From Flavobacteriaceae bacterium (lineage in GTDB: Bacteria > Bacteroidota > Bacteroidia > Flavobacteriales > Flavobacteriaceae), in contig JALQTJ010000007.1 of NCBI GenBank assembly GCA_023264015.1, forward strand, positions 1 through 54,375: DNA of 54,375 nucleotides, read 5' to 3'. The translations under genes and the position numbers were made by a program. Shown here piece by piece: positions 34,518-54,375 of this stretch (within the stretch, counting starts at the first letter, position 1; each line of letters starts with the position of its first letter). Below the pieces are notes generated by a model. That model ran no database searches, was not told the DNA's origin, and saw only the letters and a list, made by a program, of their open reading frames with translations.

Positions 34518-34556
34518 AGTAAATTAATTTTAAGGGTTATTGTTTGATAACGCACT

Positions 34557-38000: not shown

Positions 38001-38028
38001 GTCAAAGAATGTATCTTTGACAAAAATA
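38001..38028. promoter_or_regulatory. Overlapping divergent promoters with an 8-bp inverted repeat
   Basis: GTCAAAGA-N5-TCTTTGAC (38001-38021) is a perfect inverted repeat. Its right half includes the plus-strand -7 box TATCTTTG (38012-38019) for the DUF493 gene. A minus-strand box TATTTTTG (38028-38021) for the P-loop/recQ/fmt operon overlaps the repeat edge. Only 34 bases separate the two start codons, so the promoters cannot be occupied at once. Confidence 0.55.
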
Positions 38029-38034
38029 CACCGA

Positions 38035-38322: not shown

Positions 38323-38349
38323 CTCATCTCAATACCTTAATTTACCCCC

Positions 38350-39003
38350 ATGAATTTAGAAGCTTTAGAACATCTACAATACAACACATCACGCTCTCAA
38401 TTGATTATTCCTGAGAATGGAAGACATTTTCAGAAGATGATAGACCAGGCCCTCGAGGTTGAAGCCCGTGATGAACGAAACAAAATGGCTCATGCCATTG
38501 TCAGCGTAATGGGTAATATGCATCCACATTTAAGAGATGTGCCTGATTTTCAGCACAAATTATGGGACCAGTTATTTATCATGTCTGATTTTAAGTTGGA
38601 TGTAGACGCACCGTTCCCTAAACCTTCTAAGGAAGAACTCAGTCAAAAACCTGAAGCCCTTCCTTATCCTCAAAATTTTCCGAAATACCGTTTTTATGGC
38701 AATAATATCAAAAGAATGATTGATATAGCCGTAGACTGGGAAGAATCAGACAAGCGTGAGGCTTTGGCCCTAGCCATAGCCAATCACATGAAAAAATGTT
38801 ATCTCAACTGGAATAAAGACACGGTTGAGGATACCGTAATCTTTGAACACCTATTTGAACTAAGCGAAGGGAAGCTTAATTTAAAAAATCAAAAAGAGGC
38901 ACTGACCGACAGTGAAGACATTTTGAGATTTGCGAACCAAAAGCACCAGAAATCTAATTACTCGAAAAAGAACAATCGTTCTAATCGAAATAAAAAGAAG
39001 TAA
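38350..39003 (+). CDS. DUF4290 domain protein
   Basis: A 217-residue soluble, mainly helical protein of the Bacteroidota-specific DUF4290 family (LEALEHLQYNTSRSQLIIPENGR at the start). The last 40 residues are a highly basic, Asn/Lys/Ser-rich tail (SNYSKKNNRSNRNKKK), probably unstructured and able to bind nucleic acid or phospholipid. Function is unknown; the constant place just before murA (5 bases) suggests a link to cell-wall synthesis or simple co-transcription. Confidence 0.85.
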   Translation: MNLEALEHLQYNTSRSQLIIPENGRHFQKMIDQALEVEARDERNKMAHAIVSVMGNMHPHLRDVPDFQHKLWDQLFIMSDFKLDVDAPFPKPSKEELSQKPEALPYPQNFPKYRFYGNNIKRMIDIAVDWEESDKREALALAIANHMKKCYLNWNKDTVEDTVIFEHLFELSEGKLNLKNQKEALTDSEDILRFANQKHQKSNYSKKNNRSNRNKKK

Positions 39004-39008
39004 GCTGC

Positions 39009-40319
39009 ATGGGTAGTTTCGTTATCGAAGGAGGCCACCGATTAAAAGGTGAAGTAATTCCTCAGGGAGCCAAAAACGAAGCGCTTCAAATCATTTGTGC
39101 GGTACTGTTGACCGATGAACGGGTAGTTATTGAAAATATTCCGCAGATCATCGATGTCATGCGCCTTATAGATATCCTGAAACAACTCAGAGTAAAGGTA
39201 GAGCAGATTGATGAGCACACCTTTGGCTTTGATGCCTCAGGCGCTTCTCCGGATTATTTGTTTTCTGAAGGATTTAAAAGAGAAGCAGCAGGATTACGCG
39301 GTTCGATCATGCTAGTAGGCCCAATGCTCGCGCGTTTTGGTAAGGGGTACATTCCAAAGCCCGGAGGAGACAAGATCGGCAGAAGACGATTAGATACCCA
39401 TTTTGAAGGGTTCATGAAATTGGGGGCGCAATTCAGGTATAACGATGAAGAAGATTTCTACGGTGTAGAAGCTACTCGCCTTAGTGGGACGTATATGTTA
39501 CTTGATGAGGCCTCAGTGACAGGTACCGCTAATATTATAATGGCCGCGGTCTTAGCAGAGGGTGATACGGTAATATACAACGCCGCTTGCGAGCCCTATA
39601 TACAGCAATTGTGTAAGATGCTTATCGCAATGGGAGCGCAAATTGAAGGGGTGGGGTCAAATTTGATCACTGTTCACGGTGTTGATACGCTTCATGGTAC
39701 TACGCATAGACTACTGTCTGATATGGTTGAGGTGGGTTCTTGGATCGGACTTGCGGCGGTGACCCGATCAGAAATAAAGATTAAAAACGTAGGTTGGGAT
39801 CACCTAGGTCAACTTCCGCGCGTTTTTGAACGCCTGGGCGTAAAGCTTATTAAAGAAGGAGATGATCTGATTGTGCCGTCTCATTCAGAGGGTTATGAGG
39901 TGCAATCCTTTATCGACGGATCCTTAATGACTATTTCAGACGCCCCTTGGCCGGGTTTAACACCTGATATTTTAAGTGTACTACTCGTGGTGGCTACTCA
40001 GGCGAATGGATCTGTGCTTATTCATCAAAAAATGTTCGAAAGCAGATTGTTTTTTGTAGATAAACTAATCGATATGGGCGCCCAGATTATTCTTTGTGAT
40101 CCGCATCGTGCGACTGTTATTGGTCAGAATTTTAGTACGCCACTTAGAGCTACCCAATTGAGTTCACCCGATATTAGAGCGGGTATGGCGTTACTTATTG
40201 CAGCGCTTTCGGCAAAAGGAACTTCGGTTATTCACAATATTGAGCAAATAGATAGAGGCTATCAATTTATTGAACAGCGTCTGAAACAGCTAGGGGCTGT
40301 GATTGAAAGAAGAGCTTAA
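39009..40319 (+). CDS. murA: UDP-N-acetylglucosamine 1-carboxyvinyltransferase
   Basis: A 436-residue MurA that transfers enolpyruvate from PEP to UDP-GlcNAc, the first committed step of peptidoglycan synthesis. The N-terminal GAKNEAL (20-26) and the inside-out alpha/beta barrel repeats are clear. The catalytic loop reads KPGGDKIGRRRLDTH: the usual Cys of GGCxIG (Cys115 in E. coli) is Asp121. An Asp there is known to keep activity but prevent covalent binding of fosfomycin. The gene follows DUF4290 closely and converges on the BLUF gene. Confidence 0.96.
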   Translation: MGSFVIEGGHRLKGEVIPQGAKNEALQIICAVLLTDERVVIENIPQIIDVMRLIDILKQLRVKVEQIDEHTFGFDASGASPDYLFSEGFKREAAGLRGSIMLVGPMLARFGKGYIPKPGGDKIGRRRLDTHFEGFMKLGAQFRYNDEEDFYGVEATRLSGTYMLLDEASVTGTANIIMAAVLAEGDTVIYNAACEPYIQQLCKMLIAMGAQIEGVGSNLITVHGVDTLHGTTHRLLSDMVEVGSWIGLAAVTRSEIKIKNVGWDHLGQLPRVFERLGVKLIKEGDDLIVPSHSEGYEVQSFIDGSLMTISDAPWPGLTPDILSVLLVVATQANGSVLIHQKMFESRLFFVDKLIDMGAQIILCDPHRATVIGQNFSTPLRATQLSSPDIRAGMALLIAALSAKGTSVIHNIEQIDRGYQFIEQRLKQLGAVIERRA

Positions 40320-40320
40320 G

Positions 40321-40752
40321 TTATAGAGCTGAATCAAGTAATATTTCTCGAACCACTCCAAAATAATCGTTAGTTAGTTTGCTCGATTTTTCGAATGCTT
40401 TAGAGGCCTCGAAGAAACTATCGATCTGTCCTAGTTTGTGTTGAGCAGAAAGGCGGAGATTGCCGTAATCGTAAAAGGCCATACTCCAGCGATCAAAAAT
40501 GCGATCTTCACGTTCTTCTGTTCTTAAAACGGTGACATTTTGGTGTCTCTGATCTGACTCGATCGCATTAAACAAGCTAATGACCTTAGGTTTTTCTCCT
40601 TCTAGTAACTGCAGAAATTTTCTGTCGTGATACAATAGACAGCCCGTGATGTGATGCTCGGCATTAAAGTCTCTTGCGTCGCTGAGCATTTTATAAATGT
40701 CAGAATCAATAAAACTTTCCTTGGCTACCGAGCGATAGATTAAGGAAAACAT
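40321..40752 (-). CDS. BLUF domain blue-light sensor
   Basis: A 143-residue stand-alone BLUF protein that binds FAD and senses blue light. The photoactive residues are in place: Tyr6 (SLIYRS), Asn30 (DFNAEHHITG), Gln48 (FLQLLEG), Trp89 and Met91 (RWSMAF). After the sensor domain (1-95) only about 45 residues remain, with no recognisable output domain, so it probably signals by protein contact. It lies in the minus-strand run pirin, photolyase, SDR, SRPBCC, which fits a blue-light stress response. It has its own promoter. Confidence 0.93.
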   Translation of the reverse strand: MFSLIYRSVAKESFIDSDIYKMLSDARDFNAEHHITGCLLYHDRKFLQLLEGEKPKVISLFNAIESDQRHQNVTVLRTEEREDRIFDRWSMAFYDYGNLRLSAQHKLGQIDSFFEASKAFEKSSKLTNDYFGVVREILLDSAL

Positions 40753-40771
40753 ATGGTCTTGGTTGCTTTCC

Positions 40772-40804
40772 TAAAGTTATCTAATTAATTGATTTTCAAC
40801 TAAT
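40772..40804 (-). promoter_or_regulatory. Candidate BLUF promoter with an overlapping imperfect palindrome
   Basis: On the minus strand a TTG (40799-40797), 17 bases, then TAACTTTA (40779-40772), one mismatch from TAnnTTTG. An imperfect palindrome ATTAGTTGA-AAA-TCAATTAAT (40804-40784) covers the TTG and reaches the pirin stop codon. Confidence 0.45.
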
Positions 40805-41794
40805 TTGATTTGGTAATTTGATATATCCGTCTGGATATTGTGCAAAACGTCCGCGGCCCGCGTCATGAACGTGTTCGGCGGTAGGCCAAGGCCATCCACC
40901 AAATTCAGTTCGCCTATAGTTTTGGATGACTTGTTCTATTTCTTGAGAGGTATTCATTACAAAAGGTCCGTATTTAGCAACGGGTTCACCAATGGGTTTA
41001 CCTTGCATAAGGATAAAATAAACCGGACTTTCAGAACAGTTTATAATGGTCAATTTTTCGTGCTCTTCAATAAACACTCCGGTTCCTTCCTCAAACGCTT
41101 GACCGTTGATTTCAGCGCTTCCTTTGTATTGATATAAGGCACGATTTAACGGCTCATTGGTGCTAGGCAATTGAAGGGTAGCCCCTGGATCGAGAATGTA
41201 CTGTACTAACTGCAATTGATTCTGGTGATCTGCTGCCCATGAATTCGGAGGACATACGGATTGCTTGTATTCATCGATTTGTCCATAGATAAGGCGTGTA
41301 AAGACCCCGCTGATCTTCCATTGTGGAATTTCATCTTCCCATATCATTTCGAAATGTGCGTCTACCTGTTTAGAACGCGCAGGTAAGTTCAGCCATATTT
41401 GAAAGAGCTCTAAGCGGTTCTCATTATCAGATTGGAGCATGGGAAACATTTCACTGTGTTGCACTCCAGACCCTGCAGTCATCCATTGAACATCACCTTC
41501 TCCGAATCGAGCCGAAGCCCCTAAGGAATCACTGTGATCTATAAATCCTTCTGTGACCAAGGTAATGGTTTCAAATCCACAATGAGGATGGTACGGAAAT
41601 CCAGGGATCTGCTTTCCGTGATACATGCGAAAGCCATCTTTTTTTTCAAAATCGCTTCCTAGGGCCCTTCCTCCAAGTTGATCTCTGTCGATTCCTAGTT
41701 GTTCATTTCCAGAAGGATAGATGTCTTGGTGGTGTGCACAAAAAAGAAAGGGGTCAAAGGTTTGCCAAGGAAAACCCATTTGAAATGTTTTCAT
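40796..41794 (-). CDS. Pirin family protein
   Basis: A bicupin of 332 residues. The N-terminal cupin has the metal-binding set HPHCGFETI...HSE expected of pirins; the C-terminal cupin is degenerate. Some pirins are quercetinases or redox-linked transcription cofactors, and the role here is unknown. A longer frame begins with GTG at 41800, but the ATG at 41794 (MKTFQMGF) is the more likely start, 13 bases after a perfect -7 box. It lies between the photolyase and BLUF genes. Confidence 0.88.
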   Translation of the reverse strand: MKTFQMGFPWQTFDPFLFCAHHQDIYPSGNEQLGIDRDQLGGRALGSDFEKKDGFRMYHGKQIPGFPYHPHCGFETITLVTEGFIDHSDSLGASARFGEGDVQWMTAGSGVQHSEMFPMLQSDNENRLELFQIWLNLPARSKQVDAHFEMIWEDEIPQWKISGVFTRLIYGQIDEYKQSVCPPNSWAADHQNQLQLVQYILDPGATLQLPSTNEPLNRALYQYKGSAEINGQAFEEGTGVFIEEHEKLTIINCSESPVYFILMQGKPIGEPVAKYGPFVMNTSQEIEQVIQNYRRTEFGGWPWPTAEHVHDAGRGRFAQYPDGYIKLPNQIS

Positions 41795-41807
41795 AGTCAC
41801 TTTTTTA

Positions 41808-41815
41808 CAAAGGTA
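41808..41815 (-). promoter_or_regulatory. -7 promoter box of pirin
   Basis: Minus strand TACCTTTG matches TAnnTTTG exactly, 13 bases before the ATG at 41794, in the gap after the photolyase stop. It suggests pirin can be transcribed apart from the photolyase operon. Confidence 0.45.
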
Positions 41816-41848
41816 AAACCAACCTTTTAACCGGTCGCTTATACTGGG

Positions 41849-43159
41849 TTAAGAATTAGGCTTTAATGCTGCATTGTAGGTCGCTAAGCACCGCTCCCTA
41901 GCCATCTTGTGATCTACCATAGGGCTCGGATAGGTTAACTCCTGATGTTCAGGCACCCATTTATTGATGTATTTCAATTGTTTGTCAAACTTTTGAATTT
42001 GAGTGGTGGGATTAAATATTCTAAAATAAGGCGCTGCATCTACTCCAGACCCTGCTGCCCACTGCCAATTTCCGACATTACTTGCCAATTCAAAATCGAA
42101 TAATTTTTTCGCAAAATAAGCCTCTCCCCAACGCCAATCGATGAGTAAATGTTTACATAGAAAACTCGCCGTGAGCATACGAACCCGATTGTGCATATAG
42201 CCGGTTTGATTGAGTTCTCTCATCCCTGCATCTACCAAAGGGTATCCGGTGTTTCCGGAACACCATTTTTCAAAATCGTCACGGCTGTTACTCCACTTTA
42301 TTTGGTCATAAGGAGCCTTAAAGCTTTGACTTACCGTTTTCGGAAAATGCCATAGAATTTGTTGAAAGAATTCGCGCCAAATTAGTTCGCTTAAGAAGGT
42401 ATGGTTCTTGGCTTTAAAAGCGGATTGCACTACGGCTCGAGTAGAGACCGTTCCGAATCGCAAATACGTTCCGAGTTTGGATGTTCCATCGGCGTCCATA
42501 AAGTTTCGAGTAGCTTCATAGGCTTCAATGCGCTGCGAGGAGAGATTATACTGAGGTGCCTTAAGTAAGGCCACCTTTTTATTGAAATCCTTTAGGTGTG
42601 AAACTTGATAGGAAGTAAATGCTAATGGAGCTAAGCGATTTAAGTAGGCTGAAGTGTCATAAGTCGCGCAATGCTGCTCTAGATTAAAGTGATTCAACCA
42701 TCTACGTTTGTAGGGGGTAAAAACGACGTAGGGACTATGATCGTCTTTTACAATTTCATCACGCTCGAAGATTACATGATCCTTGGGTCGGTGAAAGGCA
42801 ATCCCTTTTGCCGTACAGAGGTCATAAATCTTCTTATCTCTAAGACGCGCATAGGGCTCATAATCGGCATTGGTGTATAAGGCGTCTATTTTAATTTCTT
42901 CAAAAAGTGCTTTAAAAATGGTCTCCGGATCACCCTTGTAATATCGAATGAGTTGTTGCCCTCCAAGTAATTGATTAAGGTGTTCTAAGGTCTCGTAAAT
43001 GAAGGTGAGACGATGGTCGTCTTCTTCTAACTCATCTATGATGGTTTCGTCGAAAATAAAGAGAGGAAACACCTTGTCATTTTCAGAGAGTGCTTTGAAT
43101 AATCCGTGATTGTCTTCTACTCTTAGATCTCTTCTAAACCAAAATACAGCTTGCTTCAT
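41849..43159 (-). CDS. phrB: Deoxyribodipyrimidine photolyase (class I, cryptochrome/photolyase family)
   Basis: A 436-residue photolyase that repairs UV-induced cyclobutane pyrimidine dimers using FADH- and blue light. The N-terminal antenna domain begins VFWFRRDLRVEDN; the C-terminal FAD domain has ELIWREFF, GYPLVDAGMREL and WQWAAGSGVDAAPYFRIFNP. The electron-transfer Trp triad maps to W299, W342 and W365, and Asn361, the residue near flavin N5 in CPD photolyases, is kept. This favours a repair enzyme over a pure cryptochrome. It is third in the SRPBCC-SDR-phrB operon, five bases after SDR. Confidence 0.94.
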   Translation of the reverse strand: MKQAVFWFRRDLRVEDNHGLFKALSENDKVFPLFIFDETIIDELEEDDHRLTFIYETLEHLNQLLGGQQLIRYYKGDPETIFKALFEEIKIDALYTNADYEPYARLRDKKIYDLCTAKGIAFHRPKDHVIFERDEIVKDDHSPYVVFTPYKRRWLNHFNLEQHCATYDTSAYLNRLAPLAFTSYQVSHLKDFNKKVALLKAPQYNLSSQRIEAYEATRNFMDADGTSKLGTYLRFGTVSTRAVVQSAFKAKNHTFLSELIWREFFQQILWHFPKTVSQSFKAPYDQIKWSNSRDDFEKWCSGNTGYPLVDAGMRELNQTGYMHNRVRMLTASFLCKHLLIDWRWGEAYFAKKLFDFELASNVGNWQWAAGSGVDAAPYFRIFNPTTQIQKFDKQLKYINKWVPEHQELTYPSPMVDHKMARERCLATYNAALKPNS

Positions 43160-43163
43160 AAGA

Positions 43164-43850
43164 CTAAACGCTCAACGATGATTTTCCGCCATCAACGCCT
43201 AAGATTTGACCGGTAATCCAAGAATTCTTTTCGTCTAATAAGAAAGTTACGGCAGAGGCCAGCTCATCAGCATTTCCAATACGTTTTAAGGGGTGCCTGT
43301 CGGCTATCATTTCAACCTTCTTTTCATTGTTTAGAAGTCTTGAGGCAAGTGGGGTGTCTACGATCGAAGGTGCGATTGCATTTACACGAACCTTTGGGGC
43401 CAACTCTGCGGCTAAAGCTCTGGTAAACCCTTCAATCGCTCCTTTTGCAGCTGAGATAGAACTGTGAAAGGGCATACCTGTTTGGACAGCAACAGTTGAA
43501 AAGAACACCATGCTACTTTGTTCGCTCATCTGATTTAAAATGGCTTTGACCGTACCAACTAATCCAAAGAAATTCAACTCCATTTCTTCTTTAAATTGCT
43601 CTAGTTTGAGCATAGAAAGGGGTTTTAGATTAATACTTCCAGGTAAATAAACAAATTTGTCAATCGTACCGAGCGCCTGTAATGCCTCAAAATTGGGCTG
43701 AAGCACATCGTAGGGGAGGTGTTGAATGTTCGGATGTGAAAACGTTGGTGCCGTGCGTGACGCTACTGTAATGTGATGCGTATCGCTTAAGTTCTTAATG
43801 AGTTCAAGTCCGATTCCTTTAGATCCTCCTATACACAGTAGTTTTTTCAT
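43164..43850 (-). CDS. SDR family protein lacking the catalytic Tyr
   Basis: A 228-residue classical-size short-chain dehydrogenase/reductase with the NAD(P) loop GGSKGIG (8-14) and the C-terminal ITGQILGVDGG. The catalytic YxxxK reads I132-S-A-A-K136 (FHSSISAAKGA): Lys is kept, Tyr is gone. From memory, photolyase-linked flavobacterial homologues share this, so it looks like a family trait rather than a defect. Either another residue takes the acid role or the protein is a cofactor-binding sensor. It is coupled to SRPBCC (2-base gap) and phrB. Confidence 0.87.
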   Translation of the reverse strand: MKKLLCIGGSKGIGLELIKNLSDTHHITVASRTAPTFSHPNIQHLPYDVLQPNFEALQALGTIDKFVYLPGSINLKPLSMLKLEQFKEEMELNFFGLVGTVKAILNQMSEQSSMVFFSTVAVQTGMPFHSSISAAKGAIEGFTRALAAELAPKVRVNAIAPSIVDTPLASRLLNNEKKVEMIADRHPLKRIGNADELASAVTFLLDEKNSWITGQILGVDGGKSSLSV

Positions 43851-43852
43851 AA

Positions 43853-44362
43853 TCAGGCATTTAACGGTTTTAATGTGAGTTGATAATTCAGATGTGTTTC
43901 ATTTTGGATGAGTACATCGAGTTGTCTTTTTCTATAGGTAAAGGCTTTCAAAAGCTCCTTTTTGACATAGAGATGAAAGAGTAAGGTTCCCAAAATCCCG
44001 AAGGGTAATTCGAAGTAAATCTCATCGACAATCGTGCATCCCTTGTTTTCTGTGTTTTTGACGATCCGATGTTCATGAATCCATGAGCTATAAGGGCCTT
44101 TGAGCTGTGTATCACAAAATCTTTGTGGTGGCTCGAATGCGCTTATTTCACTAACCCACAGGGTCTTGAAGAAGGGTAGTGGTCGTATAGAATACACTAG
44201 AATGCTTCCCAAAGACAATGGCTTATCAGAATCTCCTAAGAACTTAAATTTCATTTTAGGAGGAGTCATTCGCTCTAAATTCGCGACATCATTCAAGAAT
44301 TCCCACGCCTCTAATGGATCAAGGCGTGTTTCGTGTGCTACATTAAGTCGAAACCAGGGCAT
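43853..44362 (-). CDS. SRPBCC family ligand-binding protein, photolyase-linked
   Basis: A 169-residue helix-grip protein. ERMTPPKMKFKFLG, GPYSSWIHEHRI and DEIYFELPFGILG match the SRPBCC subgroup often found beside SDR and photolyase genes, sometimes labelled cell-division inhibitor without good proof. It probably binds a hydrophobic small molecule. It is the first gene of the light-linked operon. Its ATG lies four bases after a perfect -7 box, with a 10-bp inverted repeat around the -33 element, so its mRNA is probably leaderless and regulated. Confidence 0.88.
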   Translation of the reverse strand: MPWFRLNVAHETRLDPLEAWEFLNDVANLERMTPPKMKFKFLGDSDKPLSLGSILVYSIRPLPFFKTLWVSEISAFEPPQRFCDTQLKGPYSSWIHEHRIVKNTENKGCTIVDEIYFELPFGILGTLLFHLYVKKELLKAFTYRKRQLDVLIQNETHLNYQLTLKPLNA

Positions 44363-44366
44363 GACT

Positions 44367-44410
44367 CAAAGATACATCTTGTTTAATTTTTACAAGGAAT
44401 AATTAAACAA
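44367..44410 (-). promoter_or_regulatory. Promoter and palindromic operator of the SRPBCC-SDR-photolyase operon
   Basis: On the minus strand: TTG (44395-44393), 18 bases, then TATCTTTG (44374-44367), followed by AGTC and the ATG. A perfect inverted repeat TTGTTTAATT-N12-AATTAAACAA (44410-44401 and 44388-44379) brackets the -33 element. There is no T tract, so a terminator for maf is less likely than an operator. Confidence 0.6.
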
Positions 44411-44411
44411 A

Positions 44412-45008
44412 TTAATCTTCAATCCATTCTTTCAACAGGGAGTACAAGAGATGGGTAGGAAGTCCCATTACGTTGAAATAAGAGCCTATGAGTTGTTGCA
44501 CCCCTATAAGACCGATCCAGTCTTGAATGCCATAGGCCCCTGCCTTATCCATTACTTCGTGGTGTGCAACGTAGTAATGTATCTCTTCTTGGCTTAGCGT
44601 TTTAAAACATACTTGGGTACAATCGACCTTAGAGCGCATTTGTTTACGGTCGCTAATGCTTATGGCCGAATACACCTCATGCATTTTGCCCGATAAAAAG
44701 GACAGCATTTCAATGGCCTCTTTAGAAGTTTGAGGTTTTTCAAGAGATTGCTCATCACACCACACCACCGTATCACTTGTGATCAACAGTTCATTGTTAT
44801 GCAGGTCAGATTGCAGCGCCCGTGCCTTTAGTTCGGCGAGATAGGTAGCAATAGCTCCCGCCTTTAAATGACTCGGATACGTTTCATCAACACTACTAGC
44901 TTTTTGACTGAAGGTTAAGCCAAGGTCTTTTAAAAGGGCAGCTCTTCGCGGAGAGTTTGAGCCTAGAACTAGTTTGAGCTGTTTATGCGCTAGTCGTTCT
45001 GCTATCAT
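44412..45008 (-). CDS. maf: Maf family nucleotide pyrophosphatase
   Basis: A 198-residue Maf/HAM1-like protein with the N-terminal GSNSPRR (16-22) and the DTVVWCDE core. Maf proteins hydrolyse non-canonical or modified NTPs (such as dTTP, UTP, m5U-type) to monophosphates, and some influence division. The start at 45008 overlaps the KdsC-like gene by 26 bases, a deep coupling; there is no other Met before the conserved motif. It is the last of three minus-strand genes with DUF2520 and KdsC. Confidence 0.92.
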   Translation of the reverse strand: MIAERLAHKQLKLVLGSNSPRRAALLKDLGLTFSQKASSVDETYPSHLKAGAIATYLAELKARALQSDLHNNELLITSDTVVWCDEQSLEKPQTSKEAIEMLSFLSGKMHEVYSAISISDRKQMRSKVDCTQVCFKTLSQEEIHYYVAHHEVMDKAGAYGIQDWIGLIGVQQLIGSYFNVMGLPTHLLYSLLKEWIED

Positions 45009-45510
45009 GCTTCCAATCTCCTTTGACCTTCATTACTTGTTCGATGACTTCCCTGACGCAGCCTTCTCCACCTTTAAAAGGCGATACATGGTCAGCAATA
45101 GTCCTAATTTCTTGAACTGCATCTGCCGGACAAGTGGCTAAATGACAATACTGCATTGCGTCTATATCCGGAATGTCATCACCCATATAAAGGGTGTGTT
45201 CGGCGCTTATGTTGTGCGTTTCAAAGTGCTCCTTTAGTACCTCTAACTTGTGATGTGCTCCGAGGTAAATGGAGTGAATACCCAGATCTTGCAAACGAGT
45301 TTTTACTTGGGTATTGGTTCCGCCAGTAATCACTACAATTTCATAGCCAGCATTTAGAGCTTGTTTGAGGGCGTATCCGTCTTTAACGTTCATCTTGCGT
45401 ACGAGTTCGCCATTAGAGTCTAAGTATAATGATCCATCGGTCATAACACCGTCTACATCGAATACAAAGCAACGAATAAGGTGTAATTCTTCTTTAAAGC
45501 TCTTTTTCAT
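44983..45510 (-). CDS. KdsC-like HAD-IIIA phosphatase (3-deoxy-D-manno-octulosonate 8-phosphate phosphatase)
   Basis: A 175-residue HAD hydrolase of the minimal-cap KdsC group: nucleophile loop FDVDGVMTDGS (about 17-27), motif II VITGG, and the C-terminal MGDDIPDIDAM. KdsC removes phosphate from Kdo-8-phosphate for LPS inner core, which fits the presence of lptD in this genome. Related HADs act on other sugar phosphates, so the assignment is family-level. It overlaps DUF2520 by 17 and maf by 26 bases. Confidence 0.85.
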   Translation of the reverse strand: MKKSFKEELHLIRCFVFDVDGVMTDGSLYLDSNGELVRKMNVKDGYALKQALNAGYEIVVITGGTNTQVKTRLQDLGIHSIYLGAHHKLEVLKEHFETHNISAEHTLYMGDDIPDIDAMQYCHLATCPADAVQEIRTIADHVSPFKGGEGCVREVIEQVMKVKGDWKHDSRTTSA

Positions 45511-46252
45511 ATAGCTGTTGAATTGAGGTAGTCATTGAATGGTATAGTTCAAGCAAAGTTAGGTGGTCCTTTAATAATGCTCGGTGCTTTTCAAGTGTTT
45601 TGAAATCGTTTCGTTTGGCAGGGCCCGATTGCGTCTCAACAGCATTTGATTGAAGCGTACGAATCAAAGACCCCTTTAGCATGGGTTTGATCCATTCAAA
45701 ATCAAGTCCTTGCTCGCTGCAATATCTTTCGCTCAAAGCATACATATGATTACTAAAATTCTGACTAATAACAGCAGCCAAATGTAATTTGGCCCTAGAA
45801 TCACTTGAAAGAGGAATCACCTTAGGCGAAAGTGCTTTGGCAATCTGTTCCAGAACTGTTTGACCCTCTTCAGAAGAGGCTTCAATAAAAAAGGGGGTAC
45901 TTTTTAGTTCGGTTGGGAGGGACTTATTGAAACTGTTGAGAGGATAGAACACCCCCGAATCTCCGACCGTTCTTTGAATCAAAGGTGTTATGCCACTGCA
46001 ATGAGCTACCATTCCTTTAAAGCGATCTAAACGTTCGTACAGCGCCATGATGCTGTCATCGGGCACTGCCAAAAGGATCAAATCGCTTTGTAAGACCTTC
46101 TCCCACTGTGTGATCCAATACGTTCCGAAGTGAGTCGCATCATCTATATTTCTACCGAAAACCCCTTGAAAGGCCATAGAGGGCAGTGAACTCATGGCCG
46201 CAAAGAGGCTTCTTGAAAGTGCACCTGAACCAATTATAGAGACTGAGATCAT
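45494..46252 (-). CDS. Rossmann-like protein with DUF2520
   Basis: A 252-residue protein with an N-terminal Rossmann fold (VSIIGSGALSRSLFAAM, 3-19) and a C-terminal all-helical DUF2520 domain, resembling the 6-phosphogluconate/F420-dependent NADP reductase architecture. The cofactor and substrate are unknown. It heads the DUF2520-KdsC-maf operon, an order frequent in Bacteroidota, and is divergent from ccsA with 73 bases between. Confidence 0.83.
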   Translation of the reverse strand: MISVSIIGSGALSRSLFAAMSSLPSMAFQGVFGRNIDDATHFGTYWITQWEKVLQSDLILLAVPDDSIMALYERLDRFKGMVAHCSGITPLIQRTVGDSGVFYPLNSFNKSLPTELKSTPFFIEASSEEGQTVLEQIAKALSPKVIPLSSDSRAKLHLAAVISQNFSNHMYALSERYCSEQGLDFEWIKPMLKGSLIRTLQSNAVETQSGPAKRNDFKTLEKHRALLKDHLTLLELYHSMTTSIQQLYEKEL

Positions 46253-46298
46253 AAGAACAATTGACCCTCGAAACTAGTGTTTTTAGGCCAAAAGGTGA

Positions 46299-46306
46299 TA
46301 ATTTTG
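46299..46306 (+). promoter_or_regulatory. -7 promoter box of resB-ccsA
   Basis: TAATTTTG matches TAnnTTTG exactly and ends 19 bases before the ATG at 46326. Confidence 0.5.
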
Positions 46307-46325
46307 CTCCCCAAAGAATCGTTAC

Positions 46326-49300
46326 ATGCGTTCGTTCTCACTTTTAAAATTTCTTGTTTCAACACGTTTAATGGCTGCGCTCTTCATTGCTTTTGCCCTG
46401 GCAATGGCAGTGGGAACCTTTATAGAGAGCATGTACTCGACCGCTACCGCGCGTATCTACATCTACAACGCGCGCTGGTTTGAGTTAATGATGTTGTTGT
46501 TTGTGATCAACTTTATCGGAAACATCAATAGATACAAGCTATGGAAGTGGAGTAAATGGCCCCTTTTAGCGTTACACCTATCGTGGATTTTAATCATTCT
46601 TGGTGCAGGCGTTACGCGTTATATCAGCTTTGAAGGAATGATGCCAATAGCCGAAGGCGAAGCTTCTTCGAGTTTTTATTCTGATAAGACATTTCTTACG
46701 ACCTATATCGATGGAGATTTAGAGGGATCTCGTAAGCGAAAAGTACTCGAAGACGACATGATTTTTAGTGGAGAAGGGCGCAAGTCATCACTTCCGTGGT
46801 CTACGAAGTTCGGAAGTACTCCAGTTGAAATCAACTATGTAGATTTTATACCGCATGCGGTTGAAGGGGTGGTTGAAGATGCCACTGCTCCTTACATTTT
46901 GAAGATTGTCGAATCAGGAGACGGGGCAAGGCACGACCATTTCATTCAAGAAGGTGAGGTGGCTAATATTCACAATGTCTTATTCTCGTTCAATCAGCCT
47001 ACGCCAGGAGCCATTGAGATTAGCTTCGACGGCAATACCTATGGTATTAAATCTCCTTTTGACGCGCAGTTCATGCGCATGGCTGACCAATTTCAAGGGC
47101 AGGTAAAGGCAGAAGAGCCTAACGAGTTACTTCTAAGATCACTCTATACCATAGGAGAATTTGGTTTTGTGATTCCAGACCCTGCAATTCGCGGAAGGGT
47201 TGATGTAATAGAAGCGAATAAAGACAGCGCTGAAGAGACAAAAGAAGCTTTAGTAGTAGAAGTAAATGTTGCCGGAAACTCAAAGAGAGTGACCTTGATG
47301 GGAGGGCAGGGATACACCGACTTTCAGCCTTCATTTGAGTGGGAAGGTTTAACGTTTACCATGCGATACGGTTCTAAAGAATACGAATTGCCTTTCGCCA
47401 TCAAGTTGAATGATTTTATCGCAGAAAAATATCCTGGAACTGAAGCCAATTATGCCTCTTTTATGAGTAGAATCGAAGTACAAGACGATCCTTCATTCGA
47501 TTACGATATCTACATGAACCATGTACTTGACCATAAAGGCTATCGCTTTTTTCAATCGAGTTTCTTTCCTGATGAATCGGGTACGGTACTTTCAGTGAAT
47601 CACGATCAATGGGGAACTTGGATCACCTATATAGGATACTTTTTGTTGTATGCCGGTCTCATGGGCCTCATTTTCTTCGGTGATACACGGTTTAAAGTTT
47701 TGGCAAAGTCTTTAAAGAAGTTGAATCAAAAGAAGTCTGCGCTGCTAACGGTTCTTCTCCTGGGATTCGGATTAAGTTCTTGGGGGCAAGAAAATCAATT
47801 GCCTAGTCAGGAGGTCGTTGATTCTTTAATCCTTTCTAATGTGGTTTCACAGGAGCACGCGTCAAAGTTTGCTTCACTGGTTATTCAAGACGACAACGGT
47901 CGGATGAAACCCGTACATACCTTTGCTTCTGAGCTTTTGCGAAAAATAAGCCTGAGGGATTCTTACAAGGGGCTAAGTGCAGAACAGGTATTTCTTTCGA
48001 TGATGCTCTATCCCGGCCTGTGGTATAATACTGAGTTTATTGCTTTAGATAAAAAGGCTCAGAACGATAGTATTCGTTCTATAATTGGTGTCCCTAAAGC
48101 AAAGCGGTATGTGAAAGTGACCGACTTTTTTGATGAAGAAGGAAACAATAAACTGCGGCCTTACCTCGTCGAAGCCTTTGCGACCAATACGCCCAATAAA
48201 TTTCAGCAGGATTTTAAGGACGCCTCAAACAGATTGGCTTTGCTCAATCGTGCTTTGAGTGGAGAAATACTTCGCATTTTTCCGGTCCCTACAGATGAAA
48301 ACAATAAATGGACTTCTGCCTTAGAATATCGTTCTGGTGTGGTTCAGCTTAACGACACCCTGTATGGAAGCTTTGTGGCCAATTCAATTCCGCTCTATCT
48401 ACAGTACGTTGATGGAGGGGTGCAAGAAGGGGATTATCAGAAAGCAGATCAGTTGCTAGAGAGTTTGAAAAAGAGCCAACGTCAGTTGGGCTTCGAAGTG
48501 ATTCCTGCGGAATCAAAAATTCAAACCGAGATACGCTATAACCGCTGGGATATCTTCAATAGACTCTACAAATATTATTCGCTTTTTGGAGTGGTGTTAT
48601 TTTTCATTGTGGTGGCACGCATTTACAAAGAGCGCAAGGCTTTAAGAGTGACGGTTAGCCTTTTTAAAACAGCCATTTACGCCTTGTTTTTATTACACAC
48701 AGTTGGTTTAGGGGTGAGATGGTATATCAGTGGTCATGCTCCTTGGAGCGACGCCTACGAAAGTATATTGTATGTCTCATGGGCTACCCTAGGAATTGGA
48801 TTGTGGTTAGGTAAAAAAAGTGACTTCACCATTGCTTCAAGTGCCTTTGTAAGTGCTATGTTACTCTGGATCGCACATCAAAACTGGGTAGATCCTGCAG
48901 TGGCTAACCTTCAACCTGTTCTGGATAGTTATTGGTTAATGATTCACGTAGCGGTCATTGTGGGCTCTTATGGACCCTTAACGGTGGGAATGATTTTAGG
49001 GGTGGTCACCTTGATTCTTATGCTACTGAGCAACGCCTCTAACAAAGAGCGCATGAAGTTATCGATCAAAGAATTGACCGTCATTAATGAGCTTTCACTT
49101 ACCATCGGGCTCATCATGCTCACTATCGGAAACTTCTTGGGAGGACAATGGGCCAATGAATCTTGGGGACGGTATTGGGGATGGGATCCTAAAGAAACCT
49201 GGGCTTTAATTTCTATTTTGGTGTATGCTTTTGTACTTCACATGAGGCTTGTTCCTGGTCTTAAAGGAAGATGGGCCTTTAATTTTGCAAGTGTAGTGGC

Positions 49301-49478
49301 GTTTTCAAGTATTATGATGACGTACTTTGGAGTAAACTTTTATTTAGTTGGATTGCATAGTTATGCCGCTGGTGATCAGGTAATCACACCTTCGTTTATC
49401 TACTATACGGCAGCTGGAGTACTTCTTTTAGGGATGCTTAGCTTTGTTAAATACAAACGGATCTATGGAACAGCTTAA
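46326..49478 (+). CDS. ccsA: Cytochrome c biogenesis ResB-CcsA fusion protein
   Basis: A 1050-residue fused system II cytochrome c synthetase. The ResB-like N-terminal half has three early membrane helices (about 10-105), a large periplasmic domain and another helix near 435. A second periplasmic region (about 480-735) is followed by a multi-helix CcsA half. The haem-handling tryptophan-rich WWD motif is seen in WANESWGRYWGWDPKETW, flanked by conserved His residues. It attaches haem to CXXCH motifs of exported apocytochromes c. The fusion is typical of Bacteroidota and epsilon-type systems. Its end overlaps bshB1 by 14 bases. Confidence 0.93.
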   Translation: MRSFSLLKFLVSTRLMAALFIAFALAMAVGTFIESMYSTATARIYIYNARWFELMMLLFVINFIGNINRYKLWKWSKWPLLALHLSWILIILGAGVTRYISFEGMMPIAEGEASSSFYSDKTFLTTYIDGDLEGSRKRKVLEDDMIFSGEGRKSSLPWSTKFGSTPVEINYVDFIPHAVEGVVEDATAPYILKIVESGDGARHDHFIQEGEVANIHNVLFSFNQPTPGAIEISFDGNTYGIKSPFDAQFMRMADQFQGQVKAEEPNELLLRSLYTIGEFGFVIPDPAIRGRVDVIEANKDSAEETKEALVVEVNVAGNSKRVTLMGGQGYTDFQPSFEWEGLTFTMRYGSKEYELPFAIKLNDFIAEKYPGTEANYASFMSRIEVQDDPSFDYDIYMNHVLDHKGYRFFQSSFFPDESGTVLSVNHDQWGTWITYIGYFLLYAGLMGLIFFGDTRFKVLAKSLKKLNQKKSALLTVLLLGFGLSSWGQENQLPSQEVVDSLILSNVVSQEHASKFASLVIQDDNGRMKPVHTFASELLRKISLRDSYKGLSAEQVFLSMMLYPGLWYNTEFIALDKKAQNDSIRSIIGVPKAKRYVKVTDFFDEEGNNKLRPYLVEAFATNTPNKFQQDFKDASNRLALLNRALSGEILRIFPVPTDENNKWTSALEYRSGVVQLNDTLYGSFVANSIPLYLQYVDGGVQEGDYQKADQLLESLKKSQRQLGFEVIPAESKIQTEIRYNRWDIFNRLYKYYSLFGVVLFFIVVARIYKERKALRVTVSLFKTAIYALFLLHTVGLGVRWYISGHAPWSDAYESILYVSWATLGIGLWLGKKSDFTIASSAFVSAMLLWIAHQNWVDPAVANLQPVLDSYWLMIHVAVIVGSYGPLTVGMILGVVTLILMLLSNASNKERMKLSIKELTVINELSLTIGLIMLTIGNFLGGQWANESWGRYWGWDPKETWALISILVYAFVLHMRLVPGLKGRWAFNFASVVAFSSIMMTYFGVNFYLVGLHSYAAGDQVITPSFIYYTAAGVLLLGMLSFVKYKRIYGTA

Positions 49479-50193
49479 ACTTGATATTTTGGTGCTTGCG
49501 GCTCATCCTGACGATGCCGAGTTAGGAGCGGGAGCAACCATTGCTAAAGAGGTAAGCTTAGGAAAGAAAGTCGGTATAATCGATTTCACACGTGGCGAAC
49601 TAGGAACAAGGGGTACGGTGGAGACTCGTGACAAAGAAAGTGCCCTTGCAGCTGATATTTTAGGCGTTTCTGTTAGAGAGAATATGAACTTCAGAGATGG
49701 CTTTTTTGTCAATGATGAGAACCATCAGTTAGCCCTGATCCAGAAAATAAGAAAGTACCGCCCAGAAATTGTTATCTGTAACGCAGTTTCAGATCGGCAT
49801 ATTGATCATGCTAAGGGAAGTAAATTAGCAAGTGATGCATGCTTTTTAAGCGGACTTGTAAAAATTGAAACGACAGATGACAAGGGTAAACCCCAATCGG
49901 CTTGGCGCCCCAATGCTGTGTATCACATGATACAGTGGACAGATTTAGAACCGGACTTTGTCGTTGATGTATCTCAGTATATCGATCAAAAGTTTGAAGC
50001 GATTAAAGCTTACGCCACTCAATTCTATGACCCAAAGAGCGGAGAGCCAGAAACCCCGATTAGTTCGCAAAACTTTTTAGAATCTGTACGTTATCGCGCA
50101 CAAAATCTTGGAAGGCTTACTGGGGTGGCTTTCGGTGAAGGATTTACTGTAGAACGCTATCCGTTAATCGATCGTTTGGATGCACTAAAATAA
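49465..50193 (+). CDS. bshB1: Bacillithiol biosynthesis deacetylase BshB1
   Basis: A 242-residue LmbE-like zinc deacetylase. The metal motif AAHPDDAELG (about 11-20) and the distal VSDRHIDH (about 113-120) are intact. It removes the acetyl group from GlcNAc-malate, step two of bacillithiol synthesis, using the product of bshA at 21923. The ATG at 49465 is preferred to an earlier start because homologues begin just before LDILVLAAHPDD; it overlaps the ccsA end by 14 bases. tRNA-His follows 67 bases after the stop. Confidence 0.93.
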   Translation: MEQLKLDILVLAAHPDDAELGAGATIAKEVSLGKKVGIIDFTRGELGTRGTVETRDKESALAADILGVSVRENMNFRDGFFVNDENHQLALIQKIRKYRPEIVICNAVSDRHIDHAKGSKLASDACFLSGLVKIETTDDKGKPQSAWRPNAVYHMIQWTDLEPDFVVDVSQYIDQKFEAIKAYATQFYDPKSGEPETPISSQNFLESVRYRAQNLGRLTGVAFGEGFTVERYPLIDRLDALK

Positions 50194-50214
50194 GTGTAGT
50201 CAATTGTTTTGATA

Positions 50215-50245
50215 TTGATAAACAATCGAAAATAAACTACATTTG
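50215..50245 (+). promoter_or_regulatory. Promoter of tRNA-His
   Basis: A TTG (50215-50217), 20 bases, then TACATTTG (50238-50245), an exact TAnnTTTG box ending 15 bases before the tRNA. Both elements and spacing fit the Bacteroidota consensus. Confidence 0.65.
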
Positions 50246-50260
50246 CCAACCAATTTAAAT

Positions 50261-50335
50261 GGTGGTTGTAGCTCAGTTGGTTAGAGCGCTAGATTGTGGT
50301 TCTAGAGGTCGCCGGTTCGAACCCGGTCTTCCACC
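50261..50335 (+). tRNA. tRNA-His (anticodon GTG)
   Basis: A cloverleaf with the extra 5' G typical of tRNA-His (50261), D arm GCTC/GAGC, anticodon arm CTAGA-TTGTGGT-TCTAG, T arm GCCGG-TTCGAAC-CCGGT and a C discriminator opposite G-1. CCA is not encoded. The acceptor stem GTGGTTG/CTTCCAC has two adjacent T-T mismatches (pairs 5-68 and 6-67). Everything else is canonical. Confidence 0.92.
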
Positions 50336-50336
50336 C

Positions 50337-50363
50337 AAAAAAGCCCGCATTGCGGGCTTTTTT
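50337..50363. terminator. Bidirectional terminator between tRNA-His and the M28 peptidase
   Basis: AAAAAAGCCCGCA pairs perfectly with TGCGGGCTTTTTT around a single T, with T runs on both strands. It can stop tRNA-His transcription rightward and the peptidase gene leftward. Confidence 0.9.
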
Positions 50364-50382
50364 ATTCTTAATAAATTATTCT

Positions 50383-51933
50383 TTATTCTATCGGCGCTTT
50401 ATCCACAACGGGCCTATTCTCACGATTTGCCACTTCTAAAAGGGTGTGAAAAACCAGACGTGTTCTATTCTCTAATAAATCGTAATTTATTTTATCTGGT
50501 GTATCGGTATGTGCATGATAGTCGTCATGGGTACCATTGAAATAAAAGATGATCGGAATGTTGTTTTTGGCAAAATTGTAATGATCTGAACGGTAATAGA
50601 AACGGTTAGGGTCGTTTTCGTCGTTATAGGTATAGTCTAATTCGATTTGGGTGAACTTCTCGTTTACCGCTTCTGACAATTCGTGCAGTTCAGTACTCAA
50701 TTTATCCGATCCTATAAGGTAGATGTAATTTCTATCGCCTTCTCTCTTGGGATCTATACGCCCAATCATATCGATATTCAAGTTGGTTACCGTTTGAGCA
50801 AGGGGATATAAAGGTTCGCGATCTGCATAATACTCAGATCCTAGCAGTCCTTTTTCTTCTCCAGTGACATGAAGAAAAACCACGGATCTTCTCGGACCCT
50901 TACCCTCTTTTTTTGCTGCAAGAAGAGCGTCTGCGAGCTCTAACATGGCTACCGTACCTGATCCGTCGTCATCTGCACCGTTGTTAACACGTCCTTCGGC
51001 ATCAATTCCGATATGGTCTAAATGAGAAGATACGATGACATATTCATCGGGTTTTTCAATTCCTTCAATGATCGCAACAACATTTTCGGTATCTATTGTT
51101 TCAGATCCTCCTTCGACAGCCATTTCTATGGTTAGGTCTAATGCAGAAGGTTCAGTAGTTGATCCAATAATAGCTGTGGCTTTTTCTGGGTGCATAATGG
51201 CTGAGAAAAGAGTCTCTTCTTCGCTAAGTCTCATTTGTCCGCTGTTATTGCGCTTCATGTAAGTGTAATACCGTGCATATCGCTCAAAGTTTGTGGCATC
51301 AACAAAGATCAATCCTGCTGCTCCATGCTTTTTGGCCGCCTCTACTCTCTTGGGAAGCGCCTCAGAGGTATTGCTCCATTTCGAATATTCAGAGGTTTGA
51401 GTAAGTACATAAGTTCCATCTTCATTCTTGGGTTCACCGGCTATCGCGATTACTACCTTTCCGGTTACATCTAGGTCTGCGTAATTAGAGTAGGCCTCAG
51501 TGTCAATTCCATAACTGACATATACAGATGCAAACCTTCCGTTGGCAGCAGAAAAAGTGACAAAATCTTCACCAATAGTAAAGGACTGGTCTCCAATAGT
51601 GAGAGACCCTTCAGGAGCTGTCGTATAGGTGACAGGTACTTTTTGAATATAGTTTTCGGTGCCTTGAGCCATAGAAATACCCAAAGAGTCATAAAATGAA
51701 GTGAGATAAGCTACCGCCTTTTTTTGACCAGGTTTTCCGGTTTCTCTGCCTTCAAATGCGTCAGAAGCATAGGTGTAGAGATGGGTTTTTAAATCTTCTT
51801 CGGTGATGCGAGAAGCAAGGTCAGCTTGTTCTTGATCTGAAGGTAAAAGAACAACGGCAGTCTTCTCAGGTGCATTTTGACAAGAGAAGAGAAAAGCGCT
51901 ACTAAAAAGAAGCGCAACAACAGCTTTTTTCAT
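50383..51933 (-). CDS. M28 family zinc metallopeptidase, lipoprotein
   Basis: A 516-residue exported lipoprotein: signal MKKAVVALLFSSAFLFS with lipobox Cys18. A PA (protease-associated) domain spans about 140-270. The M28 catalytic domain has the zinc ligands in SSHLDHIG (His), GADDDGSG (Asp), GEEKGLLGSEYY (Glu-Glu), NLNIDMIG (Asp) and YRSDHYNF (His). It probably acts as an aminopeptidase at the cell surface for nutrient peptides. The gene appears complete and ends beside the terminator shared with tRNA-His. Confidence 0.92.
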   Translation of the reverse strand: MKKAVVALLFSSAFLFSCQNAPEKTAVVLLPSDQEQADLASRITEEDLKTHLYTYASDAFEGRETGKPGQKKAVAYLTSFYDSLGISMAQGTENYIQKVPVTYTTAPEGSLTIGDQSFTIGEDFVTFSAANGRFASVYVSYGIDTEAYSNYADLDVTGKVVIAIAGEPKNEDGTYVLTQTSEYSKWSNTSEALPKRVEAAKKHGAAGLIFVDATNFERYARYYTYMKRNNSGQMRLSEEETLFSAIMHPEKATAIIGSTTEPSALDLTIEMAVEGGSETIDTENVVAIIEGIEKPDEYVIVSSHLDHIGIDAEGRVNNGADDDGSGTVAMLELADALLAAKKEGKGPRRSVVFLHVTGEEKGLLGSEYYADREPLYPLAQTVTNLNIDMIGRIDPKREGDRNYIYLIGSDKLSTELHELSEAVNEKFTQIELDYTYNDENDPNRFYYRSDHYNFAKNNIPIIFYFNGTHDDYHAHTDTPDKINYDLLENRTRLVFHTLLEVANRENRPVVDKAPIE

Positions 51934-51991
51934 GAAGTTAAATTTTGGAATGAAGATAGCGTAAATTCAATCGTTTCAGGTATTAAAGCGG

Positions 51992-51999
51992 TATTTTTG
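51992..51999 (+). promoter_or_regulatory. -7 promoter box of the secreted hypothetical gene, next to its start
   Basis: TATTTTTG matches TAnnTTTG exactly, and only AGGT separates it from the ATG at 52004, implying a leaderless transcript. Confidence 0.5.
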
Positions 52000-52003
52000 A
52001 GGT

Positions 52004-52891
52004 ATGAAAGGGATCTGGGCATTTATACTTCTTCTATGTTCTAGTTGGCTCCAAGCCCAGTTTGAAGAAATAAAGTACGTCTCAGATTTTGAGCTCAATG
52101 GTCGCGTGGAGCGCTGTGAGGTTTTGACCCCTTACGGCAGAGAGATTTTAGCGTTTAATCCAGACCAGTCCTTAAAGCAAATTACCACTATTTTCAATGA
52201 TGAAGATCAAGAGGTGGTAACCTTTACTTACGAGCAAGGATTGCTAAAAGAAAAGTCAATCGAAGTGGTAAAGGGAGGAGCGTTACAACCCTCGGTTTCC
52301 TTTTACCACACCTACACGCAGCGTGATACTATCACCGAAGAAATAGTATTCTCTTTTGACGGTCAGTTTCAGGCCCAAAACCGAAAGGTCACAGATAGCA
52401 TGGGTTCGCCAAAAACCTTAGAGCTGCGAACCAAGAGCAGTCGGGCCCTGTATCGTTATGAATTGATGCATGGAGAGACTCGTGACAGCTTGTTTACCTA
52501 TTTAGATCAAGAACTCATCCGTCTAGAAATTACCGACAAATCATTCAAATCTGAGATTCGTAAAAGCGATGTGAGCTACACTGACTCTCTTGTGACTTCG
52601 ATTCATTGGCGGGCCTACGACCTGAAGGATAATATAATGCGAGAGGTTGATTCGATTTTTGATTACAATTCAGACCTTGTCGATAGAACCGAAAAAACCT
52701 ATTTATACAGAGAAGGTCTATTGGAGGTATGGAAAGAAATGAGATTGAATCAAACCAAAACCAAGCGCTTTATTTATCAGCTTGACAATCATACTCCTCC
52801 CAATTGGGTGAAACGGATTGAACAACCTTCGAATGCCTATACTACAAGAATAATCACCTATTTTGATCCAAATGACAGCAACCCTAGATGA
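52004..52891 (+). CDS. Secreted protein of unknown function
   Basis: A 295-residue protein with a clear signal peptide (1-18, ending LQAQF). The mature part is strand-rich with repeated short segments of the type LxxxxxYxxxG..xxR, including YEQGLLKEKS, YLYREGLLEVWKE and a final TTRIITYFDPNDSNPR. This resembles the loose repeats of secreted YD/RHS-like or toxin-antidote-type bacteroidetal proteins, but I do not recognise a family. Its promoter box touches the start, and its end overlaps the thioesterase gene by 20 bases, suggesting co-transcription with menI and menF-like genes by chance or design. Confidence 0.7.
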   Translation: MKGIWAFILLLCSSWLQAQFEEIKYVSDFELNGRVERCEVLTPYGREILAFNPDQSLKQITTIFNDEDQEVVTFTYEQGLLKEKSIEVVKGGALQPSVSFYHTYTQRDTITEEIVFSFDGQFQAQNRKVTDSMGSPKTLELRTKSSRALYRYELMHGETRDSLFTYLDQELIRLEITDKSFKSEIRKSDVSYTDSLVTSIHWRAYDLKDNIMREVDSIFDYNSDLVDRTEKTYLYREGLLEVWKEMRLNQTKTKRFIYQLDNHTPPNWVKRIEQPSNAYTTRIITYFDPNDSNPR

Positions 52892-53303
52892 AAAAGAAAT
52901 TTTAGCCCGCTGTAATGCCCGTAGAGAAGGGACATTAATGCAAACGCTAAACATTGAGTTCGTTGGTGTAGATAAAGAAAGTATTACCGCCAAAATGCCG
53001 GTTAACGCATCTGTCTATCAGCCCGATGGTGTGTTGCATGGAGGGGCGACTGCAGCGCTACTCGAAACGGTAGGAAGCGTGGCTGTTTTTGTTTTTAAAG
53101 ACACCACAGATTTGATGGTTAGAGGAATTGAATTAAGTATCAATCATCTGAAGGGCGTGAAATCAGGTCACGTTTACGCCACAGCTAAGGCTATTCATTT
53201 AGGACGCACCACACAATTGTGGGAGGTTAAGGTTACAGATGAGGATAACAATCTTATTTCAGTTGGAAAGTTAACCACACTGACCCTGCAAAAAAAGGCG
53301 TGA
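52872..53303 (+). CDS. Hotdog-fold thioesterase, probably DHNA-CoA hydrolase (MenI)
   Basis: A 143-residue PaaI/MenI-type hotdog protein with the signature QPDGVLHGGATAALLETVGS (catalytic Glu in LLETVGS). The frame extends to a TTG at 52863, but the ATG at 52872 is the better start. It overlaps the upstream gene by 20 bases and the next start by one. The following isochorismate synthase fragment supports a role in menaquinone synthesis, hydrolysing 1,4-dihydroxy-2-naphthoyl-CoA; other acyl-CoA substrates remain possible. Confidence 0.87.
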   Translation: MTATLDEKEILARCNARREGTLMQTLNIEFVGVDKESITAKMPVNASVYQPDGVLHGGATAALLETVGSVAVFVFKDTTDLMVRGIELSINHLKGVKSGHVYATAKAIHLGRTTQLWEVKVTDEDNNLISVGKLTTLTLQKKA

Positions 53304-53572
53304 TGAAACGTCTAGAATGGTTGCTGCTTTTAGAAGAATGGCTTGAGCATCCACATCCTTTTTTGATGTGTGTGCGTCCTGAAAGTAGGGTTTTGGAGTT
53401 TTTTAGATTGAGGAGAGGACCTGATGCTACGTCGGTTTCTTCTGCTGAAAATCAAGACGAAATGTTCGTGATTCATCCGTTTAATCAAGAAGAGAACGCT
53501 TATTTTTACAGTCTTGACCCTATTGATACTTTTGAGCTCTTAGCAGAATCTAGAGGATGCTGTGGTCTCTGA
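53303..53572 (+). pseudogene. Isochorismate synthase-like N-terminal fragment, broken at an assembly junction
   Basis: The reading frame gives 89 residues from the ATG at 53303, overlapping the thioesterase stop by one base. HPFLMCVRPESRVLEFF, FVIHPF and ENAYFYSLDP match the start of Bacteroidota MenF-type chorismate-binding enzymes, normally about 350-400 residues. After roughly residue 80 (near 53545) similarity ends, the last residues AESRGCCGL look random and a stop follows. The catalytic chorismate-binding domain is absent. This is probably a real gene truncated by a contig misjoin, not a functional short protein. Confidence 0.65.
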
Positions 53573-53609
53573 ACTCGCGCAACGCTTCAATAGCTTCTAT
53601 GCTCAATAG
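53544..53609 (+). CDS. C-terminal tail of an unidentified ORF (partial, from the joined sequence)
   Basis: A third reading frame, not that of the isochorismate synthase, reads QNLEDAVVSELAQRFNSFY and then AQ before TAG at 53607-53609. An in-frame stop at 53541 shows it cannot extend further left in this assembly. It looks like the natural end of a helical protein that lay upstream of the DUF4892 gene in its source genome. The family is not recognised. Confidence 0.35.
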   Translation, partial: QNLEDAVVSELAQRFNSFYAQ

Positions 53610-53635
53610 TAATGTTAGTTAAATTTGAGAGAGTC

Positions 53636-54375
53636 ATGAGAACGCTACTGTTTACCCTGTTTGTTATGATCACCACATCGGTTTGGGCTGATCAGGGGGC
53701 TATCTCTGTTGTGAATCCAGGTCCTCTCGCAAAGCTCGATAAAGAGATGCAGCAGCAGACGAATGACTATCGTTTGGCACTGGGTGCGGTAGTGAAGATC
53801 AATCGTACCATTCGTATTGGTAACGAGATGCGCCTATCCGGTGAGTTGAGTCGAGTGACCTGGGAGTATCCTAAGTCTCATGAGCCTGCAGAGGCGCTTG
53901 AGTCAGTGCGTGAGCAGCTTCTTGCTGTTGGCGCTGAGCTGTTATTTGAGTGTGAAGGTCGAGATTGTGGTGCCAGCAATATCTGGGCAAATGATCTGTT
54001 CCAAAATCCAGCTCTCTATGGTCGTGATGATTTTCAACGTTATGTAGCACTGCAGCTCAATGGCGACTTCTACTCAATCTACGCTAACCGTCGCGGCAAT
54101 CAGCGCGTTTACCTGCATATAGATCAGATAAAACAGGGTAGTGATACCACAGCGTGGATCAATCTTTTGAGTGAGCGTGGCTGGGTGAAGCTACCCGATC
54201 TCAAAGAGACCACCGTGAATCAGCTCGCTACAATGTTGAAAGCATCCACAAGTGTTATCCGTCTTGTTGGGCATCAGGCGGGATTGGATCAATCCCTAGC
54301 ACAGCGCGAGTCTGAGGCGATGGTAGATCAACTGGCAGAAAAACTTATTGCGGCTGGAGTATCGAAAGATGCGAT
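53636..54375 (+). CDS. DUF4892 domain protein of gammaproteobacterial type, partial
   Basis: The frame opens with ATG at 53636, preceded by a GAGAG ribosome-binding site unlike the rest of the window, and continues to the right edge (246 codons). A signal peptide (1-18, ending VWA) is followed by a DUF4892 domain with CEGRDCGASN-IWANDLF (106-122) and LYGRDDFQRYVA. The end begins to resemble an OmpA-like C-terminal segment (RLVGHQAGLDQSLAQRE). The family is known mainly from Gammaproteobacteria such as Pseudomonas and Marinobacter. Codons use CTG and CAG far more than the flavobacterial part. Confidence 0.8.
   Translation, partial: MRTLLFTLFVMITTSVWADQGAISVVNPGPLAKLDKEMQQQTNDYRLALGAVVKINRTIRIGNEMRLSGELSRVTWEYPKSHEPAEALESVREQLLAVGAELLFECEGRDCGASNIWANDLFQNPALYGRDDFQRYVALQLNGDFYSIYANRRGNQRVYLHIDQIKQGSDTTAWINLLSERGWVKLPDLKETTVNQLATMLKASTSVIRLVGHQAGLDQSLAQRESEAMVDQLAEKLIAAGVSKDA

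Follow-up and report, generated by a model that had tools for sequence, protein, structure and literature searches.

The right end of this contig raises the question of whether the break in a menF-type gene of a member of the Flavobacteriaceae, followed directly by DNA of gammaproteobacterial type, records a horizontal transfer or an artefact. The window, by which we mean the whole stretch of 54,375 nucleotides analysed, is contig C126 in full; the draft genome to which it belongs (G000) has 1,570,315 bases in 148 contigs, with ratings of 97.2% completeness and 2.47% contamination. An earlier note, made from the letters alone, had considered a chimeric or misassembled contig simpler than horizontal transfer, and the present analysis upholds that view: a separate close relative was found for each side, and the native locus continues on another contig, C79. 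The contig end is almost certainly an interspecies chimera, that is, an artefact and not horizontal transfer.

Two parts of one contig

Searched separately, as the earlier note had proposed, the left side led to G008, a genome of the same genus, and the right side to G110. Positions 1-53563 align by BLASTN to G008:C11:22605-76167 as one stretch with 90.5% identity, and positions 53548-54375 align to G110:C1 without gaps at 94.6% identity (783/828), spanning the boundary between a hydrolase gene and a DUF4892 gene. With the G110 alignment beginning at 53548 and the G008 alignment extending as far as 53563, the join lies inside these 16 bases, and the foreign side, measured from 53548, takes up the last 828 bases of the contig. 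The parts are as follows.

1..53547 (no strand): native sequence, from the genus of G008 and G005; a single BLASTN stretch to G008:C11
53548..53563 (no strand): join, similar to both parents (exact to G110; to G008 with a 1-base gap and a mismatch)
53548..54375 (no strand): foreign tail, 828 bases; gapless 94.6% match to G110:C1, and composition

Each side thus has a parent genome of its own, and the foreign side is colinear with G110 through the join. A composition check, also proposed in the note, placed both the GC content and the tetranucleotides of the tail outside the range of windows from the left part. GC was 0.483 in the tail compared to 0.423 in the left part, with a maximum of 0.466 among 828-base left windows (step 100). 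For tetranucleotides, the tail correlated with the left part at 0.26, where 176 left windows gave a mean of 0.73 and a minimum of 0.50, and with a 12-kb stretch of G110, from which the homologue of the tail was excluded, at 0.70.

These matches also bear on the idea that the tail is native but divergent sequence and that no chimera is involved. Nothing was found in its favour, and both the gapless 94.6% identity to G110 over 828 bases and the existence of two colinear sister genomes lacking the tail argue against it, leaving it with a negligible probability.

The native side and its continuation

Because the match to G008 is a single stretch and gene order is shared, the left 53.5 kb is, as judged by alignment, native in both order and content. 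In G008 and G005, a 295-aa frame, a thioesterase-type frame and an intact menF frame of 353 aa stand in the same order as in the window and are followed by a menD-type frame. Next to the join, the window carries two native features.

52863..53303 (+): native gene of the 4HBT thioesterase family, next upstream of menF; PF03061 66 bits, order the same in G008 and G005
53303..53547 (+): 5' fragment of a menF-type isochorismate synthase gene, about 81 codons, cut by the join; protein identity 75% to the start of the 353-aa frame in G008 and 60% to that in G005

The earlier note had seen the menF frame stop after about 80 codons near 53545, which fits the boundaries obtained here: the frame, starting at 53300 or 53303, is native for about 81 codons up to the join at 53548-53563, and then reaches a TGA at 53570-53572. 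The fragment gave no Pfam match at E 0.1 and is without the Chorismate_bind domain; the name MenF is based on the intact G008 protein, which matches PF00425 with 182.2 bits over residues 98-341, and on the adjoining menD-type gene. The name menD is based in turn on PF02776 in the N-terminal part of the G008 protein and on its position beside menF. A search with the menF fragment in 59 genomes (the draft itself and 58 others) matched five, all in the genus of the draft: the draft itself, G008 (75% identity), G005 (60%), G003 (33%) and G001 (27%). The remainder of menF was not found in the draft, which has gaps, and the sole PF00425 match there is a 480-aa frame on C63.

When G008 sequence from beyond the join was used to search the draft, bases 814-10283 of C79 (10,283 bases) matched G008:C11:86817-77348 at 89.2%, and this match runs flush to the end of the contig, within the menD-type gene. 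By this alignment, the native locus continues elsewhere in the draft, on C79. About 1.2 kb of G008 between the native end of the window and C79, covering the remainder of menF and the beginning of the menD-type gene, was matched nowhere in the draft. A search of the draft with PF16582 (MenD) found nothing, although most of the menD-type gene is on C79 by DNA comparison, so that this empty search is no evidence. Synteny with the same G008 contig places one end of C59 at 20865, before the window start at 22605, and one end of C60 at 90050, past C79.

The foreign tail and its parent

The tail holds the end of one gene and a second gene that the contig end interrupts, both on the forward strand.

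53548..53609 (+): last residues of an alpha/beta hydrolase, foreign (LEDAVVSELAQRFNSFYAQ, then stop); the G110 hydrolase preceding DUF4892 has the same C-terminus
53636..54375 (+): foreign DUF4892 gene, cut by the contig end; PF16234 104.5 bits, 96% protein identity to G110:C1:895296-896033

Three readings of the earlier note concerned this part, namely an ORF tail in another frame ending at 53609, a DUF4892 gene starting at 53636 behind GAGAG, and a gammaproteobacterial origin of the right side, and each agrees with what we found. The frame ending in QNLEDAVVSELAQRFNSFYAQ, other than that of menF, terminates with TAG at 53607-53609. DUF4892 in G110 is preceded by a frame for an alpha/beta hydrolase (PF00561, 91.7 bits) with the C-terminus HHLHLEDAVVSELAQRFNSFYAQ, which the window retains from LED onward; this accounts for the ORF tail as the end of such a hydrolase. 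The ATG at 53636 is preceded by GAGAGAG, and the frame that it opens scores well above the curated cut-off of 28.8 bits for DUF4892 (PF16234).

A scan of a contig database gave nine protein relatives of the DUF4892 frame, with 39-54% identity and titled Marinobacterium or Oceanospirillaceae (Gammaproteobacteria), and in 9/9 of their loci a frame with a C-terminus of the type GGHH(L/P)H(L/M)E, recognized by eye, precedes DUF4892. We then searched the family of G059, the genome with the Marinobacterium sp. xm-d-530 locus, which also includes G110. DUF4892 matches were present in 103 of its 116 genomes; G110 matched with 96% identity over the whole 246-aa query, and all others with 54% at most. 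The 12-kb stretch of G110, compared to the draft, matched only at the tail of C126 and over 107 bases of 69% identity on C33.

Chimera or horizontal transfer

In a real horizontal transfer, DNA from a relative of G110 would have been inserted into menF of this strain, and both the position of the join in continuous sequence and the 94.6% identity to G110, which is also expected of a recent transfer, are compatible with such an event. However, an insertion would break menF, the remainder of which was not found in the gapped draft, and the foreign DNA starts within the hydrolase gene and comprises 828 bases without a mobile gene. The resumption of the menD-type gene flush at the end of C79 likewise argues against transfer, as does the finding that the join is common to none of 58 relatives. 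The earlier note had named the same arrangement in a related genome as what would speak against a chimera; the junction 30-mer (allowing at most 3 mismatches) was present in the draft and absent from 58/58 other genomes. Its remark that no mobile element accompanies the join also holds, the tail having just the hydrolase end and DUF4892. No mobile gene or integration site was found at the visible boundary, the two tRNAs of the window being at 32810 and 50262, and since the contig stops within the foreign DUF4892 gene, a single boundary is visible.

We consider horizontal transfer very unlikely, and its more specific form, a recent transfer from a G110 relative (Marinobacterium family) by illegitimate recombination at a short similarity, which would have inactivated menF, less likely still. 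In keeping with the reading of the contig end as an interspecies artefact, we infer that the join exists in no cell. The relevance of the finding is curatorial only: the last 828 bases should be trimmed, at 53547, which avoids crediting DUF4892 to this organism, inferring gene transfer and calling menF a pseudogene. Short foreign tails may slip past genome-wide ratings such as the completeness and contamination values of this draft.

Possible origin of the join

The native contig runs to about 53547 inside menF, with the next 1.2 kb or so of native sequence left unassembled, and a molecule or graph path linking menF to DNA of a G110 relative of the Marinobacterium family would have supplied the 828 bases. 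The join itself could have come from template switching at a short similarity, during amplification or library preparation, or from a wrong assembler overlap.

Between these two sources of an artefact, we lean slightly towards a chimera made in vitro by a template switch and not by the assembler. G008, as the presumed native continuation, resembles G110 right at the join (ATCAGAGGGTGCTGT versus ATCTAGAGGATGCTGT), and a prefix similarity as good as this, with a fixed start, was obtained for 1 of 20,000 random position pairs, a comparison that suggests a template switch at a short similar stretch. In contrast, G005 lacks the similarity by eye, and the species' own sequence past 53547 could hold a longer exact overlap, as an assembler needs. 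We gave up the argument that the similarity at the join is incompatible with an exact assembler overlap, given G005 and given that G008 is only a stand-in past 53547.

According to the passages of PMC6515389 that describe it, a chimera-detection pipeline for amplified DNA seeks overlaps of up to 30 bases at the join. The multiple displacement amplification chimeras treated in those passages resemble C126 in joining at a short similarity, as suggested here, and differ in that they lie within the human genome, 25 to 5000 bases apart, whereas C126 joins two species. Chimeric contigs are a recognized type of database error, as set out under issue 7 of PMC10978663; the chimeric contamination outlined there likewise has sequences of different organisms in one contig and is sought contig by contig, and in that outline it shows no difference in kind from the present case. 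In C126, a close relative is known for each side, the join is placed within 16 bases and another contig of the draft carries the native continuation. The case is nothing new in kind and belongs to a known class of artefact.

Other contig ends in the draft and in a sister genome

A survey of contig ends covered 43 draft contigs with 84 ends, compared to 850,914 bases of G008 (about half of about 1.6 Mb) with matches of at least 800 bases and at least 80% identity. It yielded 29 testable ends; 50 were on stretches without a match, and for five the compared G008 sequence stops at or soon after the match. Native sequence reached to within 3 bases of the end in 22/29, and the right end of C70, matching at 79.9% to the very end, raises this to 23/29. 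Since most testable ends are native, chimerism does not run through the whole draft. The 50 ends lacking a match are partly expected from the partial G008 sequence and are more than the unsampled half suggests, so that contaminant contigs are possible; 11 further contigs of less than 1 kb were also without a G008 match.

Six of the 29 testable ends were unmatched: C126 right, C79 left, C72 right, C70 left, C58 right and C72 left. The unmatched length of C126 right was 812 bases in the survey and 828 bases by the G110 match. In a reverse control with the ends of G008, 12/15 testable ends were native to within 1 base and 3/15 were unmatched, indicating that an unmatched end alone proves little and is not peculiar to this draft, and weakening the notion of unmatched ends as its special defect. 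The three G008 ends, the left ends of C12, C13 and C16 (232, 827 and 1,967 bases without a match in the part of the draft compared), may be foreign ends or a difference between the genomes. For C126, the only one of these ends shown to be foreign by its parent, it is the match to G110, and not the unmatched end, that counts.

The draft probably has a second foreign end, at the left of C79. Bases 1-813 depart from G008 synteny inside a 563-aa frame, which we take to be an ABC-type ATPase, and a foreign origin of the tail is supported by a phage-type frame that interrupts this frame, which is intact in G008. The interrupting frame hits phrog_27932 (baseplate hub and tail lysozyme) with E 2.6e-21. 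It matched 26 phage records, each with less than 60% identity and none over 80% of the query, and a search for a phage parent in IMG/VR returned five stretches with the pattern, none of them a relative.

The other unmatched ends are more varied. The right end of C58 (19341-20000) has 660 bases that lack a G008 match and show short repeats by eye; it is probably a native repeat, and we do not call it foreign. The left end of C70 (1-284) has 284 bases with no clear reading frame and GC 0.36 compared to 0.47 in the rest of the contig, and G008 continues differently there. The right end of C72 (13680-13898), 219 bases with GC 0.53, leaves G008 synteny with the start of an HxlR-type regulator. The left end of the same contig (1-2231), 2,231 bases with GC 0.51, may be a chimera or a real island; it includes the last part of a DDE transposase (PF13701) as well as a long frame, dGTPase-like by eye.
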